DNA of 64,000 nt from Blakeslea trispora (lineage: Eukaryota; Mucoromycota; Mucoromycetes; Mucorales; Choanephoraceae), in the NCBI GenBank assembly GCA_025331445.1, contig JAIWNE010000006.1, forward strand, positions 186,001 through 250,000, read 5' to 3'. A program made the translations under genes and the position numbers. Below are positions 13,334-28,635 of this stretch, one piece after another. How positions within the stretch are numbered: the stretch's first letter is position 1; each line of letters starts with the position of its first letter. Below the pieces are notes generated by a model. The model saw only the letters and a list, made by a program, of their open reading frames with translations, had not been told where the DNA came from and made no database searches.

Positions 13334-14620
13334 CAGTAGTCCCAAGTTGACTATACACTGACCTCGAAAACTACTTAACCGTTGCTTAAAATCAAGCATT
13401 ATTCTCATGATGATCAAAACCTTTTACTTCTCATACAACCACTAACATAAAAAAATTGGAATAACATAAGAAACAAACGCAAGCGTGGTAATTGCATAGA
13501 GATTACTGACAAAATGCGTTGGGCATTTATTGGTTTCATGATGAAGGATATGATAATACTACCATTGGAAGAAAGGTTGGGCCATTTAGAGAAACTGTAA
13601 AGAGCATCGTTAAGATGATCAAAGAAACAGGGTCACCTCTCCTTCGCTTGAGACATCTCGAGCGTGCTGTAGATCGCGACCCATCCATGAGCATCCAGCA
13701 AGCTAAAAACGAATTGAAGCTAATCGACATCAATGTCTGTAGAGACACCATTGTGTTTTATCTTCGCGAGCTTGGATTCAAGCCTTACTATGTAGCGTAC
13801 AAGCCAGCTTTGACAGACAACCACAAGAAGAATCGCTTGGAATGGGTCACGGAACACCTGGATTGAACAACAGATCAATGGGGCCCACGTCGTCTGGTCT
13901 GATGAGTCCAGATTCTCCGTGTGAGGAGCAGACGGAGGTGTCAGAGTTCTTCGTCGCGTAAGTGAGCGATACAAAGAAGAGCTCACTGTGCCCACTACCA
14001 AGTTTGGTAAAGGAGGAGTAATGGTTTAGGGTTGCTTCTAGAAAGGTGATGTTGGTCTTCTTGTTGTTGCTGGCGGTGCAACAAATCAGGCCAGGTACAT
14101 CAAAGTCCTATCAGAAAAGTTCCAGCCTTGGCTCATGGAACTCCAGTTCAAGCATAACGGACGCTTCATCTTTCAAGAAGATGGAGCTACGTGTCATACT
14201 GAGGGCTCTATCATGCAACTGGAAGAACCACCATATGATGAAGGGATTTGATTTCTGGCCTGCTCAAAGTCCATATTTAAATCCAATTGAGCACTTGTGG
14301 TGGGCTCTCGAGAGCGTGAGGTCTGGTATCAACAATACCAAAATACTGGCTGATGAGTTATCTCATGCACCGTCTGGTTGATAGTGTGATAAAAGATGCC
14401 AAGCAGTTATTGATGCAGAAGGCTGTCCCACAAGATATTAAATCATTTCTTAACTTTGTGTTATTAAAGTAGATCCTCTACCATACCATTGATTAAAATA
14501 TGAAGACGTTCTGATGATATTTAGCTTCACTAAGGAACAACTCAATAGTCATATCTTTATTTCTGAGTTTTAAGTGGTTGAATATTTTTCGGGGTCAGTA
14601 CAACATTGGAGGATTTTGGA
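13334..14620 (+). mobile_element. Degraded Tc1/mariner transposon, copy 1
   Basis: The left end reads TA followed by CAGTAGTCCC, the usual Tc1 style of TA target plus CAG terminus. An inner segment (ACTGACCTCGAAAACTA, about 13357-13373) recurs in inverted orientation as CGGGGTCAGTAC near 14590-14602 past the transposase, so imperfect inverted ends flank the gene. The outer right end is eroded, so the limit is approximate. The transposase inside carries several nonsense codons; the element cannot move by itself. Confidence 0.65.
13510..14472 (+). pseudogene. Tc1/mariner transposase, broken
   Basis: The translation runs from a helix-turn-helix region (EGYDNTTIGRKVGPF ... KMIKETGSP) through the DDE catalytic core: RRLVWSDESRFSV (first Asp), GRFIFQEDGATCHT (second Asp) and DFWPAQSPYLNPIEHLWWALE (Glu). 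The C-terminus ends SFLNFVLLK and a stop at 14470. Nonsense codons interrupt it after FSV (near 13922), at GVMV-GCF and at GCF-KGD, and there are frame changes near 13866 and 14215. Two of the stops replace expected Trp codons (TGG to TAG). No in-frame ATG remains at the N-terminus. It is clearly related to the second transposase at 25183, sharing VWSDES and FQEDGATCHT. Confidence 0.8.
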
Positions 14621-19378: not shown

Positions 19379-19440
19379 TAGCACACGTAACAAACGTAAA
19401 AGTTGGATTTTAAACACGTTCAGAACCCGTAAATATACGT

Positions 19441-19750
19441 ATACAGAGCAGGGAAACCAACTAGACCCAAAATCCAGCCGACTTTTGATGTATACGCATG
19501 ATTCCACAACCACAACGCTCTAGTCGCTGCTGCATGTTCACATTGAGAACTAAAAAGTTAGTAAGGAAAGGAATTTCTTTTGATGATAAAGTGACATATA
19601 CAGAGCAGGGAAACCAACTAGACCCAAAATCTAGCCGACTTTTGATGTATACGCATGATTCCACAACCACAACGCTCTAGTCGCTGCTGCATGTTCACAT
19701 TGAGAAATAAAAAGTTAATAAAGAAAAAAAAAGGAAAAAAAAATTTTTTT
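19441..19750 (+). repeat. Tandem duplication, period 157 bp, two copies
   Basis: The unit starting ATACAGAGCAGGGAAACCAA at 19441 starts again at 19598 and is nearly identical for about 120 bp (one C to T change in the CCAGCCG/CTAGCCG part). It then diverges at an A-rich end. Both copies contain the same short open frame ending HDSTTTTL. This is a recent local duplication. Confidence 0.9.
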
Positions 19751-20029: not shown

Positions 20030-20764
20030 TTATCTTTATTCTCATCTCAATTCACCCAACTAACTCAAATCTACTGAGTTATCTGCATCAGCTCTCTTCC
20101 TCCTCTACCTCTGGTCTCTCAATTTAAAGTCCGTCATCCAGCTTATTTGGCGGGGCTGCTGTGTCTGGGGGCTACTCCGCCGGTAATAAGCAATACGATT
20201 GGACACTGTTAGCCAATAAAAGTTGTTATTACTGTCGCTCATTTAAGTTTTTGCTTAATGGTTTTTGAATGAGTGGGCTCAAACAGAATATTACTAAAAA
20301 TTATAAAATTTTCTCTCTTCTACCAAAGAAATTCATCAAGAAAATTCCAGTGATTGCAAGCTTGTTGGACTACAAATAAGAAACGAAAGTGAGTAAGATA
20401 ATCAAGCTAATGAAGTAAGCCTTGTCTCAGAAACGAAGCCAGTAACGCCCTGCAATCCTTACAAGAGCTGGATTTCGTTTAAGGAACATTATTAGAGGAG
20501 TCAATGAAAGATATGCCTCCAATTAACATCGTTTTGGCCGAGTATTTTGAGGACCTTCTGACTTGCTTGACATAATGAAAAAAGTCCTTCTGAAAATGGA
20601 AAAGTGCCCCATTTATGGAATCAAGTTTGTGATTACAGAGTAATGTGATTATTTGGGTAAAAATCATCAGCAACATACATTTAAAAGGCTTCAATTTTTA
20701 AAATCTGAGATGTTTGTCTCACCCGAGAGCTACACAAAGAGAACAAAGAATATACAATCTATCA
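20030..20764. other. Spacer upstream of the Fanzor gene
   Basis: About 700 bp without a gene. A GC-rich patch at 20149-20183 (GGCGGGG ... CTCCGCC) can pair, and GTAATAA near 20181 recurs inverted as TTATTAC near 20229. I could not find inverted ends matching those expected to the right of the second transposase. Confidence 0.4.
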
Positions 20765-20773
20765 TATAAAAGG
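20765..20773 (+). promoter_or_regulatory. TATA box of the Fanzor gene
   Basis: TATAAAAGG, a canonical RNA polymerase II TATA element, followed by a CT-rich tract. It lies 170 bp before the start codon. A likely 5'-UTR intron (GTAAGA at 20866 to CTCTTAG at 20939) sits between, so the ATG follows the acceptor almost directly. Confidence 0.6.
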
Positions 20774-20942
20774 CCAAAAAAAACTTGTTTCTGTTTTTCT
20801 CTTTGTCTCTGTTACCTCATCTGTTAGATTCTTCTAATACATCTAATCTCTTATTGCTGGAAGGAGTAAGATATATTTTATTCTGACCTTGATATATCTG
20901 CCCCATTAATATGCTATGAATAGATCTAATCCCTCTTAGGCA

Positions 20943-23900
20943 ATGTCCTACCGCAGGGCTCTACAAGATACATTCTATTTGGGCGGTCGTTATACTCCTG
21001 CGCCCCAGTTGTCTGTCAATGTGCAACAACAACCATCTACCATAGCTCCTGGCATGAGGCGTGCATTTGAAATGTCTGTAGAAGAATTCCATGACCTGTT
21101 TTATATCGTAGCCCAAGCCAAGCTACGCGATAACATTATCCGTGAAAAAAACAAAAAGAAGCCAAACTACTCTGCTCTCAAAGCCAAAACTCTTGCTGGT
21201 CAAATTCCAAGAGGACTGTATGCTGATATGGATAAACATGCTAACCTCGGTTTGCGAGAATCTGCAAACAGATTTCAAAATGATAATTCAGTGTCTCGAG
21301 CAATTGATCTTTGGAGAAGATATGTACAACAAAATTTTGATGTCGTCCAAGAGTCTGTAAGCAATCCTACTACTGAAGCAACTAGCTCTACTCAAGCCAT
21401 TGAACCTTCTTCAGAAGAGCTCCCTACCGAACCTGCTTCCTTTGTTGTTACCGAAGAATATTTTGAAGTCTGTACTGCGTATTTTCCCTCGTTGATACGA
21501 GATGATCTTACACCTGAAGTTAGACAACTCTTTGATACTAAGCTTGCTGAACTACTGCCTCAGACCTCCAACTTTATCAGTGACTTTCAAACAATCATGT
21601 TTATGATAATGTCCTGTTTCCGAAGCCATACTTTTGCTGTTCGCAATGGAAAATCAGTATTTTGATAGATCAAATGGCTTTCAAATACAAAGCATCTTCC
21701 CAAGTAACTTTCAGCTACAAGATACCTTGATTTTTTCTGCCTCTCCATATGCTTCCAACTTTCTTGCCTCTCCTGATGCTAATGACATTCCTTTTCTCTT
21801 CACTGACCGACATATTCATTTTTTGAAGTCTGGTTTTTATGGTGTTCGTGGCTTGCAAACAAAGACCAAAACAGATTATCCTTTGAGAACCCTGTTAATG
21901 GAAGCCATCTCTGACTCAGTCAGCCAATTCATCCAACCAAAAAACACTCTTCATATGGCCTGCTATGAGTCTGCACTGACTAACTATATTACCAATCTAT
22001 CTGTCATGTGGGGTGATAACAAGATGATCAACATTCTTCTAGACAAGCTTTTGTTAGTGTTGCTACGTATTCATTTGGCTCCTACAAGAGAAAAAAAGCA
22101 TCAAGAATATATCAAGTCTATGAAAAATGCCTCTAAAGAAAGAAAAGACGAAGCTGCAAAAGAAAGTAAGACAGAAGCAGGTCATCCTACCAACTGGTTT
22201 CCACTGCTCCATCAAAGCAGAAGAAGGTTAATAGTCCGCAAAGAACGTTACCGGCTTGCAAAATACAGACAAAAATCAAAAAGCTCATCATCTGCGTATA
22301 TGAAGCAAAAATGGGAAGCTCGAGCCCAAAAAAGTGAGAAACGTATCGCAACATACACAAAAGCTCTGGAAACTAAGGTATGTATGTCTACAATCAACGG
22401 GAAATCAGTCACTCATCTATGTCTATTATACTATTTTCAATAGGAACCCAAAACTACTTCTGCCAAGAGAAAACAACCTTCTGAGCCTGATGTCGCCGAA
22501 GGTTCTGAGCGTCCAAGAAAGATCCCTGCTATCCAACATCCCTCTACTGCTTCTGCTGAGGCTGGTCCCAGTATGCTACATACTAGTCGCATGGAGTTAG
22601 ATATTCCCACACAGCCGTACGAAGGAAAAGGGAAAGCGCCAATGAATCCCCAAAGCGATCCGAAACCTGTTACTTTCCAACCACCCATGACAGGAGAGAC
22701 ACACACTATTCTGCCTGCTACACCAGAAGACTACGCAAGCATGGATGAAAATGATGTTGTCGAAGAAGAGGATGCTATAAAAGATGCTGATGATGATGCT
22801 CCTAGACACAGGTTGAATGGCTTAAAAGGCTTTATCAAGAGCTTGCTGTTGCGTGATGAAGATTTGCCTAACGAACAAGACTTGACAGGTCTGCGCTCTG
22901 ACTTGAATGAGAAGGAAGCAGAAGTGTGTTTGCTTATACTACGACGCTTAAAACCTTACATCCCTTCAAAGAAAAACTACTCTCATATTGGCTACCAGCT
23001 ACCTTTTGTAATTCTTGCGAATGATTTGCTGCGCTGTGCTGGCTATGCTAAGTTCTGTCGTAAAATCTGCCCAATGCCTATTGCAACTCAAAAGTCCTTT
23101 AGACTGGATACACCTTCGTTATTCAAGACATTCTGCGAGCATGGTGACAACAAAATGACATTTTTTGGCTATGACAACAGAGTCATTAGGGGCCCTTTGG
23201 AATATATCAATCATAAAGATGCTGTCTTCAATGCTTTTTTCAAGATTGATAGAATACAACAGTTGTGCAGACGTCGTAAATTGGTTTTTGCTCATCATCT
23301 TCATTTGCTGCCTGGTGGAAAGTATGTCAGAATCCTTGGTATCAAAGAGAAAGCGCCCATGAAGCAGACTGCTGATGTAACAGGCCAGAAGCGTCAATAC
23401 AACATTCCTGAATCGACTTGGCAAGATATACTCAGTGAGCGCGAAAAAGACAATGAAGTTTTGAGACAAGAAATTGATGAACTCTTGGGGAACACCAACC
23501 GTTTGTCAAAGCAGCTGAAAAACAGATTTAAAGAATTCGGCAATCAAGATTTTAGTTTGCAGATCAAAACTGCCAAGCAAGGCTGGAAAAACCCAATTAA
23601 TCTTGAACCTGAAGTTGCTGTTGTGCAGGGTAGTGATTCTGAAGAAGAGGCAGGTGTATGTTGTCCTCAAATTGGTGAATGTATGACTGGTGTTCAGAGA
23701 CAAATTGCAGACATTGTCAGAACTATACAAGCTCGTATCCGACGTCCGCATGCCAATAATGATGAAGAGTTGATTACTGCTGCTAGAAATGAGATCAAGG
23801 TGTACATTGATGGGTTGAAGGCTGAGAGAAGTAGGTTGTTTCTGGCTATTCAACAAGTCAAGTCTGAATTGGCAGACCAGCGATACCAGCTGTATATCCG

Positions 23901-25023
23901 CAGAAGAGCATTAAATTTGACAAAAAGAGATCAAAAAGCGCCCAGACAGACCAGAGAACTGCAGCAGATTACGGGCCAGCCTACGATTGCTAAAGCTGAA
24001 GATATGCAACTGATGGGTGACGCTGATACTATTGCTAAAAATTTCACCTTCTCCGGCACAGACAATGGTGTTGTCAAAATGACTGAATCAGTGCCAGTTT
24101 CCATTCAAAAATACGTTTATCATCTGAAGCTCTACAACAGGTTTTCTGCTTTGACTACTACTGAAGAACAAGAAGAAGAATTTCAGCCTTTGCCGTCGTC
24201 CACTGTCATCAACGCTGAAGACATTGACTTTGGAAGCCAAAACTTGAACTACAGACACAAGCTTGCTGCTAAAAAGGCAAATGATGTGAATTTGATTGAA
24301 GCTGAGAAGGTGTTGTCCGAAAAAAGTTTATCCAATGCAAGTTCCGTAGAAGCAATCCAGACAAACTATCATTTTTTGCAAGCCAATAGACAGACAGTCA
24401 GGAACTTTTATGATTCTCCACAAAGATCTAAACAGGCCATGAAGCAGGAATACTTTACCAAGAAAATCAAAGACCGCCTTTGCTCTCGCGAAAGGGAATT
24501 CACGAATCCTAAACCGAAAAAGAAAGATGTCAAGAAGAAAGGGAAAGAAATACAAAGAAAAAAACTGTTGATGATGATTGGTGATCGTGGCTTTGGGATA
24601 GGTTCCAGAATTAGAGGACATCTTAGATATGGTGGTATTTGGAAACAAGATCGGCATGCAAGGTATACGACTGTCTGTATAACAAGCGAAAACTATACTT
24701 CCCAGACTTGTGTGTATTGCTTCAACAAGCTCACTCATGCAAGATCGCGCATTATCAAACAAGACAAAATAGCTTATAGAGAAATCAAAGGTACCTTTAT
24801 CTGCTATAATTCCAAGTGCCCTTCTGCTCGTCACGGTCGTAACACAACCTCCAGAGATAAAGTGTCTGCCCTTGCTATTGCCATCTCCGGAATGACAACT
24901 TTGCTCTTCCAAGAAACTCTCCCTGTATTTTCAAGAACCATCAGTCACTCCAACACTGAACTGCACAACAAAACAGCATCCTTCTGTACAAGAAGCGGTG
25001 TATTGGCTGCACGCGAAGCGTGA
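20943..25023 (+). CDS. Fanzor (eukaryotic TnpB-like RNA-guided DNA endonuclease)
   Basis: Fanzors are eukaryotic relatives of bacterial TnpB; characterised members cut DNA guided by an omega RNA encoded at the gene's 3' end. Modelled as three exons (20943-21598, 21669-22377, 22444-25023), about 1314 residues. The second intron is textbook (GTATGT..CAATAG); the first (GTTTAT..GATAG) is weaker and could be a frameshift. The RuvC site is complete: Asp in FSGTDNGVVKM (codon 24061), Glu in VCITSENYTSQT (24688), Asp in NTTSRDKVSALAIA (24856). A zinc ribbon, CVYC ... CYNSKC, lies between the last two. A basic patch (SAKRKQPSEP ... RPRK) may be a nuclear signal. RuvC-I to RuvC-II is 209 residues against 87 in ISDra2 TnpB, and RuvC-I falls near residue 995, so there is a large N-terminal extension. 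A Tc1-type transposase follows in the same orientation. Confidence 0.85.
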
Positions 25024-25115
25024 TAAGCAAGGTTGTAAGTGTTACACAAACTCTGATTGCTTTAAATTGCTAAACCTTCTCTCTCCCCCCCAGACATGAC
25101 AGCCTTGCCGCTTAT
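25023..25115 (+). ncRNA. Candidate structured 3' element (possible omega-RNA scaffold) of the Fanzor
   Basis: The segment 25023-25034 (ATAAGCAAGGTT) pairs with 25101-25115 (AGCCTTGCCGCTTAT): six pairs, a three-base bulge on the 3' side, then six more with one G-U. The loop contains a good intron (GTAAGT at 25035 to CAG at 25093); if removed, the loop shrinks to about seven bases. A smaller hairpin CACGC-GAA-GCGTG ends at the Fanzor stop. Characterised Fanzor and TnpB guide RNAs overlap or follow the 3' end of the gene, which is why I flag it. No expression evidence; a 3'-UTR or termination structure is the alternative. Confidence 0.35.
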
Positions 25116-25182
25116 TTTAAAAAAGATGCGTTTTGATTAAATTTCTCACATTCTTTATCTACTTTTCCGCGTAAAACTCAAC

Positions 25183-26271
25183 ATGCTTCTTAAGAAACTC
25201 AAAACTTCAAGCTGTGAGCCAGCTAGCGAAGATTGTAAGCCTAGTAAAAATCTTGATTTAGAGATATTATGGGGTATTTTTTGCCTCAAGGAAGCAAATT
25301 TCTCTTATGCCAATATAGGTGACATGATTGGTGTAGCTAGTACCAGTGTCTAAAGAGTTGTAAACAGAATCGAAGAAACTGGGTCACCACTGCAAAACAA
25401 ATCACCTGGAAGACCCAAGGTCTTGTCAGAAAGAGACTTGAATCATCTTGAATTGATTGTAAGACGTTATCATTTCGCTTCTTACAACCAAATCAGTTCC
25501 GAGCTCAAGGCAATTCACATCAACATTCACGGAAACACCCTGATAAGCTACTTGAAAGATATGGATTTTACATCGTACTTCGCAGCTCATAAGTCAAAAC
25601 TGTCTGAAGTAAACAGGCTTAAACGACTTCGATGGGCCAAAGAAAGGGTCAATTGGCCATTAGAGAGTTCGAGACGTGTTGTGTGGTCTGATGAGTCAGG
25701 GTTTACTGTGGAAGGTTATCGTGGAGGGGCCAGAGTGTTCCGAAAGCTCGACGAAAGGTACCAAGAGCAACATATTGTGCCCATAACAAAGTGGGGCAAA
25801 GGATGTGTGATGATTTGGGGCTGTTTTTGGGCTGGCGGTTTCGGGCCTTTGGTCTTGTGTGATAGCTCTGTAAATCAGGATGCTTACGTCAACATCCTTG
25901 CTAAGAACTTCATGCCATGGTTCATTGAGCTGAGCGAGAAGGAGGAACAGGACTTCATACTCCAAGAAGACGGCGCTACGTGCCATACAGGTAAGTATGC
26001 AACATGGTAGAAAGATACATAACAGACTACCCGGTTTGATTTCTGGCCACCACAAAGTCCTGATCTCAACCCAGTTGAGCATATCTGGAGCTCTTTAGAC
26101 AAGCTCATTGAAGAAAAGAGGCCCGATGTGAACAATGTTAAGTAATTGGAGTCGGCTTTGAAAGAAGCTTGGGGGCAGATCAGTGTTGATCTTGTAACAC
26201 GTTTGGTTGAAAGTATGAATGATCGCTGTCAGGCAGTTATTGATGCCAATGGTGATCCAACCAAATATTAA
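25183..26271 (+). pseudogene. Tc1/mariner transposase, broken, downstream of Fanzor
   Basis: From ATG 25183 one frame reads through to TKY and a stop at 26269. It has a helix-turn-helix part (FSYANIGDMIGVASTSV ... RIEETGSP), SPGRPKVLSERD, and the catalytic blocks RRVVWSDESGFTVEG (Asp), DFILQEDGATCHTG (Asp) and DFWPPQSPDLNPVEHIW (Glu). Nonsense codons stand at 25351, 26008, 26020 and 26143, with the frame otherwise kept throughout. The two at 26008-26022 could instead be spliced out, since GGTAAGT precedes them at 25989 and CAG follows. It lies 160 bp after the Fanzor stop in the same direction, as expected if both belonged to one transposon. I found no convincing terminal inverted repeats by eye. 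Confidence 0.85.
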
Positions 26272-26605
26272 AAAAAATATTTTTGTCTTAATTCTTAAGT
26301 ACTATGACTTGAGCTACATATCTGCTGAATTTGAGAAAACAAGAGCCCTTCTTGGGCTTACAGTGTTTATTGCATGATACAGTATGCTTCTCGGCATTTC
26401 AAAAAAATTAAAATTGAACTCATCTTTTTTGTGTGTATTAAATCTGGGAATAAAAATGCGGCTAAAGAGTCGGAGTGAGCCATATGGCTATTGTGGGTCG
26501 TGCCTGCCACAATTCATTGTACGCGTCACACTTGGTTTGTAGGGCTTGATTTGCTAATTTTTTGACAAAGAAAGCAGGTGCTCTATACCAATATAACAAA
26601 TAACC
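26272..26605. other. Spacer between transposase remnant and SIR2
   Basis: Contains a short hairpin (GAGCCC TTCTT GGGCTT near 26345-26361) that may mark the right part of the transposon, and a 12-bp perfect palindrome AGCCATATGGCT near 26478 in the SIR2 promoter side. Confidence 0.4.
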
Positions 26606-28635
26606 ATGAGCGACGAAGTTGAGAACCAGCGTAAGGAGGACCTTTCTTCTGACAAGAAACGATTTGCTAGTGATTCAGTGGATGAAGAGCAAGCCAAGAG
26701 AGCAAGAATAGGTAGGCCCTTTCTAAAAAAAAAAAAGAAAAATAAAAAGTCCAAAAATAAAGAAAGGATAATAAAATTAATTTTGGTAATAGATGATCAG
26801 GTGGAAGAAACTCAAGATGATCCTGTAGCCACTGCTTCTATATCTATCAGCGACGCGTTGTTTGATGATTACAATGAAGAATCAGATCAAGATTGGGCCT
26901 CTGGTGATGAAAGTGAGAGCAGCTTAAGTGATCAAGGTATTTTGTCACACCCTGCTTTCCAAGTAGATGATGACAGCCCAGATGATGTTGATGTGGATGG
27001 ATCAGATGAGGAGAGCCGTTACCAGCTGTGTAAGTGGATTTATTGAGTTATTTGCATGTTTCTCACAATAACTTGATAGCATGGACAAGTTTTACTGAAG
27101 AGGAAATGGAAGCTATTCGAGAAGAGGCAAGAGAAAAGGGTTTAATGAAATTTATCGAGAAATACGTTGTCCAAGAATCAGTTCCGGTTCCAAAGATGTT
27201 GGAAGTATTTGATATGTTTATGGTAAGGTACCTATGCGCTCTGGGCTTGACTTAAGCTAGTGCAACTAAATTCATGCTTCAATTTTTTTTTTAAAAAAAA
27301 AAGCATCCCAAAGCAGCTGCGTTGGCTTCCGACATTGAACTTTTACCTATCCTCAGAAGCGTTGTTACCCGTTGCTTGCGTAAAAGACGTCGATTAGAGA
27401 ATGTAAACACAATAGAAGATGTTGCTGATTTGCTTGGAAAGGCCAACAATATTATGATTGTCACTGGTGCTGGAGTATCTGTCTCATGCGGTATCCCAGA
27501 TTTCAGATCAGAAAAGGGCATCTATTCACGCCTACAGGAATACGAGCTGGACGATCCTCAGCAGATGTTTGATATTGAGTATTTTAGAGAGATGCCTGAG
27601 ATATTCTATACCTTTGCAAAGGAGCTCTATCCTGCCAATTATGAGCCCAGTCCAGGTCATATGTTTGTCAAGTTGATTGAGGAAAAGGGCAAGCTATTGA
27701 GAAACTATACACAAAACATTGACACTTTGGAACATAAAGCAAACATCAAAAGGGTGGTGAATTGTCATGGTAGCTTTGCCACTGCTTCATGTGTCACCTG
27801 TGGTTACAAAGTGGACGGTAAAGAAATTGAGGAATACATTATGGCTCAGAAAGTTGCTCCCTGTCCTAAATGTCAAGCACTAAAAGAATCGTTGCCGAAC
27901 AGCCATACAAACGGTTCGGACGATGATGACGACAATGTGATTCCTCGTCCAAGAGGTGTTTCCATCATGAAGCCAGTAATGTCTATCTTTTAAAAAAGAG
28001 AGAAAAGAAGCTGAATGTATTCATGCTCTATTGACTTTTAGGACATTACTTTCTTTGGTGAACGTCTTCCAGCTGAATTTGATGATTTACTTGTAGTAGA
28101 TACAGATCAGGTGGATCTATTGATTGTAATGGGCTCATCACTCAAAGTATCTCCAGTATCAGAAATCATGTCTCAAATACCACATAGTATTCCTCAAATC
28201 TTAATTAATCGAACACCTATTACACACATGACATTTGATATTCAATTACTGGGAGACAGTGATGTGATCGTACCTGAACTCTGCCGCATGCTTAACTGGG
28301 ATTTACAACACCCTAAATTACCTGGTGGTAGCGCTCTTAGTGAAGAAAGTATTCGTCTTAGTCGTGAAGGATCAGGCGATATTGTGCAAATAAAAGATGA
28401 ATCTGGTCAAGTTAGATCTGAACAAAAAATCTGGAGTTTTGTTCGACAAGGTCTTTACACTTTTCCTGGTGCTGTGGTTGATCCAAAATATATCAATAGT
28501 CAAAGGTAAGGAAAAAAAATAGGTGTCTTTGCGATATGTTCTTATGTATCAACGCATAGATGCGATGAAAGAGGTTGTGTTGATAGTAGCGATTCTGAAC
28601 GAGAAACAACAGAAATTGAACCGCAAGAAGATTAA
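26606..28635 (+). CDS. SIR2: SIR2/SIRT1-type NAD-dependent protein deacetylase
   Basis: Multi-exon sirtuin. It removes acetyl groups from histone and other lysines using NAD, acting in heterochromatin silencing. After a basic/acidic N-terminus (intron 26712-26789 with GTAGG..AATAG) comes a helical segment ([18 protein letters not shown]). The catalytic core follows: [18 protein letters not shown] (NAD loop), [15 protein letters not shown], catalytic His in [13 protein letters not shown], and four zinc cysteines in CVTC and CPKC. After an intron near 27987 it continues [24 protein letters not shown] and QILINR. A last small exon ends EPQED. Class I SIR2/Hst1/SIRT1 type from the N-terminal segment and the [14 protein letters not shown] core. 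No lesion. The start at 26606 is only 335 bp from the broken transposase. Confidence 0.93.

Follow-up and report, generated by a model that had tools for sequence, protein, structure and literature searches.

Fanzors, the RNA-guided nucleases carried by eukaryotic transposons, are described as proteins of 400–700 aa whose biological role is stated to be still unknown, and ghost elements of Fanzor transposons are already in print (PMC10432273). Also in print are Fanzor1 elements without a transposase, mucoralean ones with target-site duplications (TSDs) of 9 bp or 11–12 bp, and an 8-bp duplication in a Fanzor1-bearing IS4-type element of Ectocarpus (PMC3627910). Here we describe a young family of Fanzor elements in the fungus Blakeslea trispora, starting from one copy in a window of 64,000 nt (contig JAIWNE010000006.1, positions 186,001 to 250,000 of the forward strand, assembly GCA_025331445.1; bare coordinates are those of the window). 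Taken as a whole the data are best explained, and in our judgement probably correctly, by a transposon family with a giant Fanzor1-type gene that is mobilized in trans and retained with the help of an omega-RNA-guided Fanzor.

Among the described systems, Spu-1 of Spizellomyces punctatus, which encodes SpuFz1, has ghosts arranged as in the Blakeslea family, but its target-adjacent motif (TAM) adjoins the left end (PMC10432273), whereas the motif of the Blakeslea family lies 15 bp away with no TAM beside the end; the Blakeslea protein, at 1,337 aa, also exceeds the size range of known Fanzors, and the TSD is 8 bp. PpFz1 of Parasitella parasitica is a mucoralean Fanzor1 and the best Foldseek match to our predicted structure, but identity in the structural alignment is 12%, and nothing like its ATN TAM (PMC11423790) stands beside the left end of the Blakeslea elements. 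ROr-4, PBl-3, MCi-4 and MCi-2 (Bao & Jurka, 2013; PMC3627910) are mucoralean Fanzor1 elements, of which the first three lack a transposase of their own; they have 9-bp TSDs and MuDR-like terminal inverted repeats (TIRs) or, in MCi-2, TSDs of 11–12 bp with the pattern ATAATTNNNN(N) and no TIRs, whereas the Blakeslea family has a TSD of 8 bp and a motif outside it. One of the ten Mucor families in the same paper may be a relative of the Blakeslea family, and P0012, a homologue from Mucor, could be among the MCi proteins. Dada DNA transposons (PMC3706591) are likewise eukaryotic and target-specific, but they enter multicopy small RNA genes, whereas the Blakeslea elements use a dispersed 11-bp motif, with no tRNA at 17 rebuilt sites. 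The open-access literature (subscription papers and most preprints lay outside the search) yielded no description of a fungal Fanzor family with 8-bp TSDs and a distant oriented motif, none of a 1,337-aa Fanzor, and no eukaryotic parallel for insertion with set orientation and constant spacing relative to a short motif. Among eukaryotic DNA transposons, to our knowledge, such insertion at a dispersed short motif is uncommon. Tn7-like elements and CRISPR-associated transposons resemble the family in that their orientation and their spacing from a recognized sequence are fixed, but they are bacterial, have dedicated targeting subunits and make 5-bp TSDs.

Copies, ends and target-site duplications

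The window copy was aligned with 20 copies from the same genome, a comparison that the first-pass annotation had proposed; it gave common ends (Table 1) and allowed 17 empty sites to be rebuilt. The termini are imperfect inverted repeats of ~23 bp, and among the 24 elements with both flanks read an 8-bp TSD is perfect in 17 and matches at 7 of 8 positions in 2 more. Flanks recur among some copies: L011 and L018 have a left flank in common and differ in the right one, the right flank of L022 is that of the window copy, the right duplication word of L027 is the left one of L032, and the ghost L052 lies between inverted copies of one flank.

A genome search with the exon-2 product (53 of 197 candidates scored) listed 60 matches, of which 12 cover all 859 residues at 96–100% identity and 8 others cover at least 600 residues at 48–51%. 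Two protein lineages occur on shared ends. Compared per 100 bp, the window element and the lineage-2 copy L025 are 97–100% identical over the first 300 bp, 35–79% in the body and 93–95% over the last 161 bp; across five lineage-2 copies identity is 92–98% over the first ~370–380 bp and 87–90% over the last ~200–210 bp. Towards the 3' end of the coding sequence the synonymous difference is 0.33 in the last 37 codons, versus 0.76 before the last 60. Six of the seven short elements are ghosts of ~750 bp that lack the gene and keep the left 432 bp and ~250 bp of the right end; the seventh, of 470 bp, has a right end reduced to 27 bp.

A search for the TIR pattern gave 154 hits at up to 3 mismatches, about 100 of them listed. 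Sixteen further TIR loci (about 1.1 kb each, one 0.4 kb) include 12 that are Fanzor elements or ghosts and three (L076, L082, L089) with short terminal matches only. The remaining one, L074 (C2:549250-550400), has a diverged left end, about 78% identical over ~117 bp, and behind it a frame similar, as judged by eye, to the N-terminal part of the Fanzor; it is probably a third Fanzor lineage; eight frames of L074, L076 and L082 had no Pfam match below E 0.2.

Table 1. Features of the window copy and its surroundings
Feature	Position	Strand	Remarks
Target motif TTTAAAGTCCG (consensus TTNAAAYTCCG)	20123..20133	+	external to the element; separated by 7 bp from the TSD and by 15 bp from the left end
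Left 8-bp TSD GCTTATTT	20141..20148	.	
Whole Fanzor element	20149..25109	+	4,961 bp; ends are the limits of similarity to near-identical copies elsewhere in the genome
Left TIR GGCGGGGCTGCTGTGTCTGGGGG	20149..20171	+	
Left end retained in ghosts	20149..20580	+	432 bp
Exon 1 of Fanzor gene	20943..22377	+	frame broken near 21,66x in the window copy, also in L013 and L017
66-bp intron (GTATGT...ATAG)	22378..22443	+	deduced from the frame in other copies and from Choanephora protein P0001
Exon 2 of Fanzor gene	22444..25023	+	859 codons and stop, open; contains the RuvC and zinc-ribbon part
D540 (FSGTDNG), RuvC-I aspartate	24061..24063	+	by motif and register
E749 (ENYTSQTC), glutamate beside zinc ribbon	24688..24690	+	compare GtFz1 EHYTSQEC
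D805 (SRDK), RuvC-III aspartate	24856..24858	+	by motif and register
Candidate omega-RNA scaffold	24910..25109	+	right ~200 bp; conserved between lineages and retained in ghosts; the right TIR forms one arm of its fold
Right TIR, reverse complement GGCAAGGCTGTCATGTCTGGGGG	25087..25109	-	
Right 8-bp TSD GCTTATTT	25110..25117	.	
Decayed Tc1/mariner copy	25119..26436 (approx.)	+	outside the Fanzor element, adjacent by insertion; limits from five relatives

Insertion at a fixed distance from an oriented motif

Left flanks were taken from rows with 0–1 TIR mismatches and from fetched copies, a choice that under-samples old copies; 54 were read, and the merging of two duplicates left 52 distinct ones. 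A flank was scored as a match to TTNAAAYTCCG when it had at most 3 mismatches over the 10 specified positions. The motif occupies positions -26 to -16, exactly 15 bp before the left end, in 43 of the 52 flanks, and at no other register within 12 bp do more than 4 have it. Single positions are supported by T in 46/52 (-26) and 44/52 (-25), and by C in 43/52, C in 41/52 and G in 43/52 (-18 to -16). The motif was read off 15 flanks first, all of which match; it is present in 28 of the 37 remaining flanks, and any other register accounts for at most 4 of these 37. Sorted by kind, it stands at this register in 10 of 11 lineage-1 copies, all five lineage-2 copies, 4 of 7 ghosts and 24 of 29 unclassified ends. 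The 7-bp spacer and the TSD carry no more than 0.38 bits per position in the 52 left flanks, and at most 3 of 29 right flanks contain the motif in either orientation. Insertion is oriented, at a fixed distance from TTNAAAYTCCG, with the left end facing the motif. The rule is obeyed by both lineages and by most ghosts and is therefore a property of the ends and of the machinery that moves them.

Three other accounts of the motif were set aside. As a host promoter-like word it is not clearly enriched (206 exact sites genome-wide versus 140 for a reversed control); against a tRNA B box, ARAGORN found no tRNA in the 17 rebuilt empty sites; and as a target of a constant guide within the element ends it scores no better than chance, since its best score was reached or exceeded in 368 of 500 first-order Markov shuffles of the left 432 bp and in 105 of 500 of the right 254 bp. 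A repeat, TTNRAACTCCGGGACACCCAAAATCAGG, found at about 14 places (for example C113:137934 and C217:157071), varies in its first positions as the target motif does; a few of its copies lie near matches to Mutator-like elements (MULEs).

The Fanzor gene and its product

The long frame of the window copy, at 859 codons (859 aa), forms the 3' exon of a gene whose start lies farther upstream (Table 1). Fourteen lineage-1 loci were tried with exact start and splice words; L011 and L020 lacked one word and were left out, and 12 were readable. Once the 66-bp intron is removed, four copies (L012, L015, L016 and L018) encode a single protein of 1,337 aa, and L014 reads through to 1,306 aa. The frame is broken after residue 240 in the window copy, L013 and L017, and at other places in L010, L019, L022 and L023. 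A protein of Choanephora cucurbitarum (P0001) spans the position of the same intron. Seven copies have an open 859-codon exon; in all 21 pairs of these the ratio of nonsynonymous to synonymous divergence (dN/dS) is 0.16–0.34, which shows purifying selection on the protein during recent spread.

The identification of the product as a Fanzor, made in the first-pass annotation, is borne out by the predicted structure and the catalytic residues and not by sequence profiles. The C-terminal 460 residues are predicted to adopt the RuvC fold with inserted zinc ribbon of solved Fanzors (predicted local distance difference test score, pLDDT, 70.7; predicted template modelling score, pTM, 0.60). An AlphaFold2 prediction of the whole 859 aa from 10 sequences was poor (pLDDT 48.8) and was kept out of the structure search; the N-terminal part has no confident fold, and residues before 478 lie outside the predictions. 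The catalytic residues D540, E749 and D805 and the four zinc-ligand cysteines (C756, C759, C787 and C792) are invariant in a 7-row alignment (A3), and not all seven are so in the larger alignments A2 and A4, which include partial gene models. Their equivalence to D383, E541 and D606 of SpuFz1 is set by motif and order, without measured coordinates.

Profile methods returned little. A Pfam scan of the window protein gave nothing at E≤1, TnpB and Fanzor models included, a weak match to Cas12f1-like_TNB (E 0.12) appeared in one of ten members scanned, and HMMER searches against solved chains gave no match to a Fanzor at E≤1 or E≤10. Profile–profile comparison with canonical Fanzor fragments of the same genome placed ENYTSQTC in register at a low probability (4.4%, E 0.0093). 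By sequence alone the protein would not be filed as a Fanzor; it is the modelled fold together with the residues that does so. The genome also holds fragments of canonical Fanzors outside this family (G000 C20:33602, C1:618090, C233:102916 and C13:12014; PF07282, E 1.7e-9 to 4.6e-9), and a profile of such fragments matches GtFz1, a TnpB and mimivirus L79. The first-pass annotation, which did not have the name of the organism, was right to call the genome mucoralean in type.

A candidate omega-RNA at the right end

Folding of the right end gives a hairpin and a long helix; the helix joins the right TIR to GCAAGGTTGT, which lies just 3' of the stop codon. This helix appears in 3 of 5 folded sequences and is shortened in a fourth, and ML054 folds differently; across 20 sequences 96% of cells pair, versus 29–47% when the helix is slid. 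The omega-RNA of Fanzor1 is reported to include the TIR (PMC10711439). An omega-RNA that includes the right TIR is thus a plausible, unproven candidate; the resemblance of the internal GCAAGGTTGT to the TIR offers a protein-binding site as an alternative to RNA pairing.

Mobilization and its rival explanations

There must be, or must once have been, a transposase that recognizes the shared ends, and most likely mobilization takes place in trans, with the motif read by a protein, either the transposase or a host factor. On the model that we propose, a transposase supplied in trans would bind the TIRs of ghosts as well as those of Fanzor elements and, itself or via a host protein, recognize the 11-bp motif, and the element would be joined at a fixed distance with its left end towards that motif. 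The right end would then be transcribed as an omega-RNA scaffold, with the DNA just outside it as guide, and this flank-derived guide would aim each copy at its own empty site. The Fanzor ribonucleoprotein (RNP) might cut empty sites or sister chromatids, repair of which would restore or copy the element, as proposed for TnpB.

Several observations weigh against this account. No transposase was recognized in the Fanzor elements read. The TSD is mismatched in 5 of the 24 elements (L011, L022, L027, L051 and L052); in four of these a flank or duplication word is common to another copy, or one flank is present as an inverted copy, which suggests that flanks were shuffled among copies by ectopic recombination or misassembly, and L051 is unexplained. 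The motif is absent at its register from 9 of 52 left flanks, including 3 of 7 ghosts, and positions -4 to -1 carry 0.18–0.38 bits (52 flanks), so that no conserved TAM adjoins the left end. The near-identical left ends of the two lineages fit recent exchange as well as constraint. The six Fanzor matches to the predicted structure have modest TM-scores (0.27–0.40 of the query), with Cas12 members close behind, and in the right-end helix no pair of 20 shows a compensatory, two-sided change and one fails in 8 of 20 sequences.

The first-pass annotation had taken the Fanzor gene and a Tc1/mariner transposase gene that follows it for one former composite transposon; on such a reading the Fanzor would have been mobilized by its neighbour. 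A Tc1/mariner frame does follow on the same strand (PF01498, E 8e-10), a few hundred bp away at most, but it is decayed: it is open for 218 codons only, against up to 397 in close relatives, and both terminal words are degraded or lost. The two kinds of element do meet, since L010 has a more distantly related Tc1/mariner-like element (29% identity), of another family, nested inside its Fanzor copy. Against a composite, the Fanzor element with its own TIRs and TSD stops at 25109 and leaves the Tc1 sequence outside, the two share no ends and no TA duplication encloses them. Five Tc1 relatives, 88–89% identical in DNA to the window relic, have a terminal repeat of their own (CAGTCACACACAAAAAAGATGCG, TIR CAGTCACACACAAAAAAG), flanked by TA at the right end in all five and at the left end in three, and none of the five (3.2 kb each) is similar to the Fanzor elements. 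Fanzor rows of ≥94% occur at 18 places; among the matches listed, the place in the window is the only one of these with a Tc1 relative (≥40% identity) within 10 kb (positions compared by eye; 150 of 389 Tc1 candidates scored). Other copies with the two genes apart and with different ends were what the first-pass annotation had itself named as refuting its reading, and these data do refute it. The pair is therefore a neighbourhood and not one transposon, and a composite origin has next to no chance of being right; the best explanation is that the relic was there first and that the Fanzor element inserted next to its end. As to the type of transposase acting in trans, a MULE (MuDR) enzyme making 8-bp instead of the usual 9-bp TSDs is conceivable though doubtful. 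It would agree with the Fanzor1 elements of Rhizopus, Phycomyces and Mucor that have MuDR-like TIRs, 9-bp TSDs and no transposase (PMC3627910) and with 148 MULE-domain matches in the genome (150 of 184 candidates scored), but the TSDs counted above are of 8 bp and not 9, and inspection by eye of the TIR hits listed gave a single MULE match between these ends, which is not an autonomous partner with the same TIR: at G000 C216:205654-210221 a ~3.8-kb MULE element is nested in a ghost, which it splits into two halves. The genome also holds 32 matches to the hAT dimerization domain. An 8-bp TSD, as found here, is typical of hAT transposons, and a hAT enzyme would fit in duplication length, but by eye no hAT match lies between paired ends among the TIR hits listed and nothing links hAT genes to the TIRs. 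One weak match (C2:556025, E 2.6e-4) lies inward of a left TIR (C2:549312), at a distance of 6.7 kb; no right end was found for that TIR. We know of no hAT element with a strict one-sided target motif; hAT mobilization is in our estimate unlikely.

The motif might instead be the binding site of a host protein that tethers the integration complex, as host proteins do for Ty3 and Tf1, rather than a word read by the transposase. Its one-sided, fixed-distance geometry would suit such a tether, and fungal Zn2Cys6 factors typically bind CCG triplets such as the one it contains, but the motif is hardly over-represented genome-wide and the rebuilt empty sites hold no tRNA gene, and we would not expect this explanation to prevail. 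More radically, the Fanzor RNP, or the ~1,000-aa N-terminal part of the protein, could itself recognize the target and make a staggered cut that receives the element and yields the 8-bp TSD. The attraction of this idea is that with TTNA as TAM the TSD falls at nt 15–22 beyond it, the range in which SpuFz1 cuts (after 16/17 and 20/21; PMC10432273); no transposase was recognized in the elements read, and the protein has roughly double the length of known Fanzors. Yet conservation of the motif ends 7 nt beyond TTNA, which is short for an R-loop, the implied stagger of 8 nt is greater than that of SpuFz1, neither element end outscores its shuffles, the N-terminal part has no confidently predicted fold, and the TTNA/TSD geometry may be chance. 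We hold Fanzor-directed insertion to be very improbable, and give equally little credit to the notion that the Fanzor, or an RNP with a constant recognition part, selects TTNAAAYTCCG sites and produces the staggered cut into which the element goes, as a eukaryotic counterpart of CRISPR-associated transposons.

The family has a bearing on why Fanzors ride so many eukaryotic transposons and whether they steer landing sites. In a culturable fungus that is in industrial use, it brings together a Fanzor gene under selection, copies that are intact, ghosts, ends that can be read and a target rule that is sharp and oriented. The rule makes the landing question testable, since new insertions can be scored against a single 11-bp word, and the same rule could supply a tool for site-selective integration.

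Other features near the element

Upstream of the element, the window contains a second decayed Tc1/mariner fragment (13796-14200) with internal stops and 47% identity to the Tc1 relic discussed above. A direct duplication of 133 bp (19437-19569 and 19594-19726), 96% identical, lies nearer to the left end. Just downstream of the relic, at 26600-28500, is what we take to be a sirtuin-like gene.

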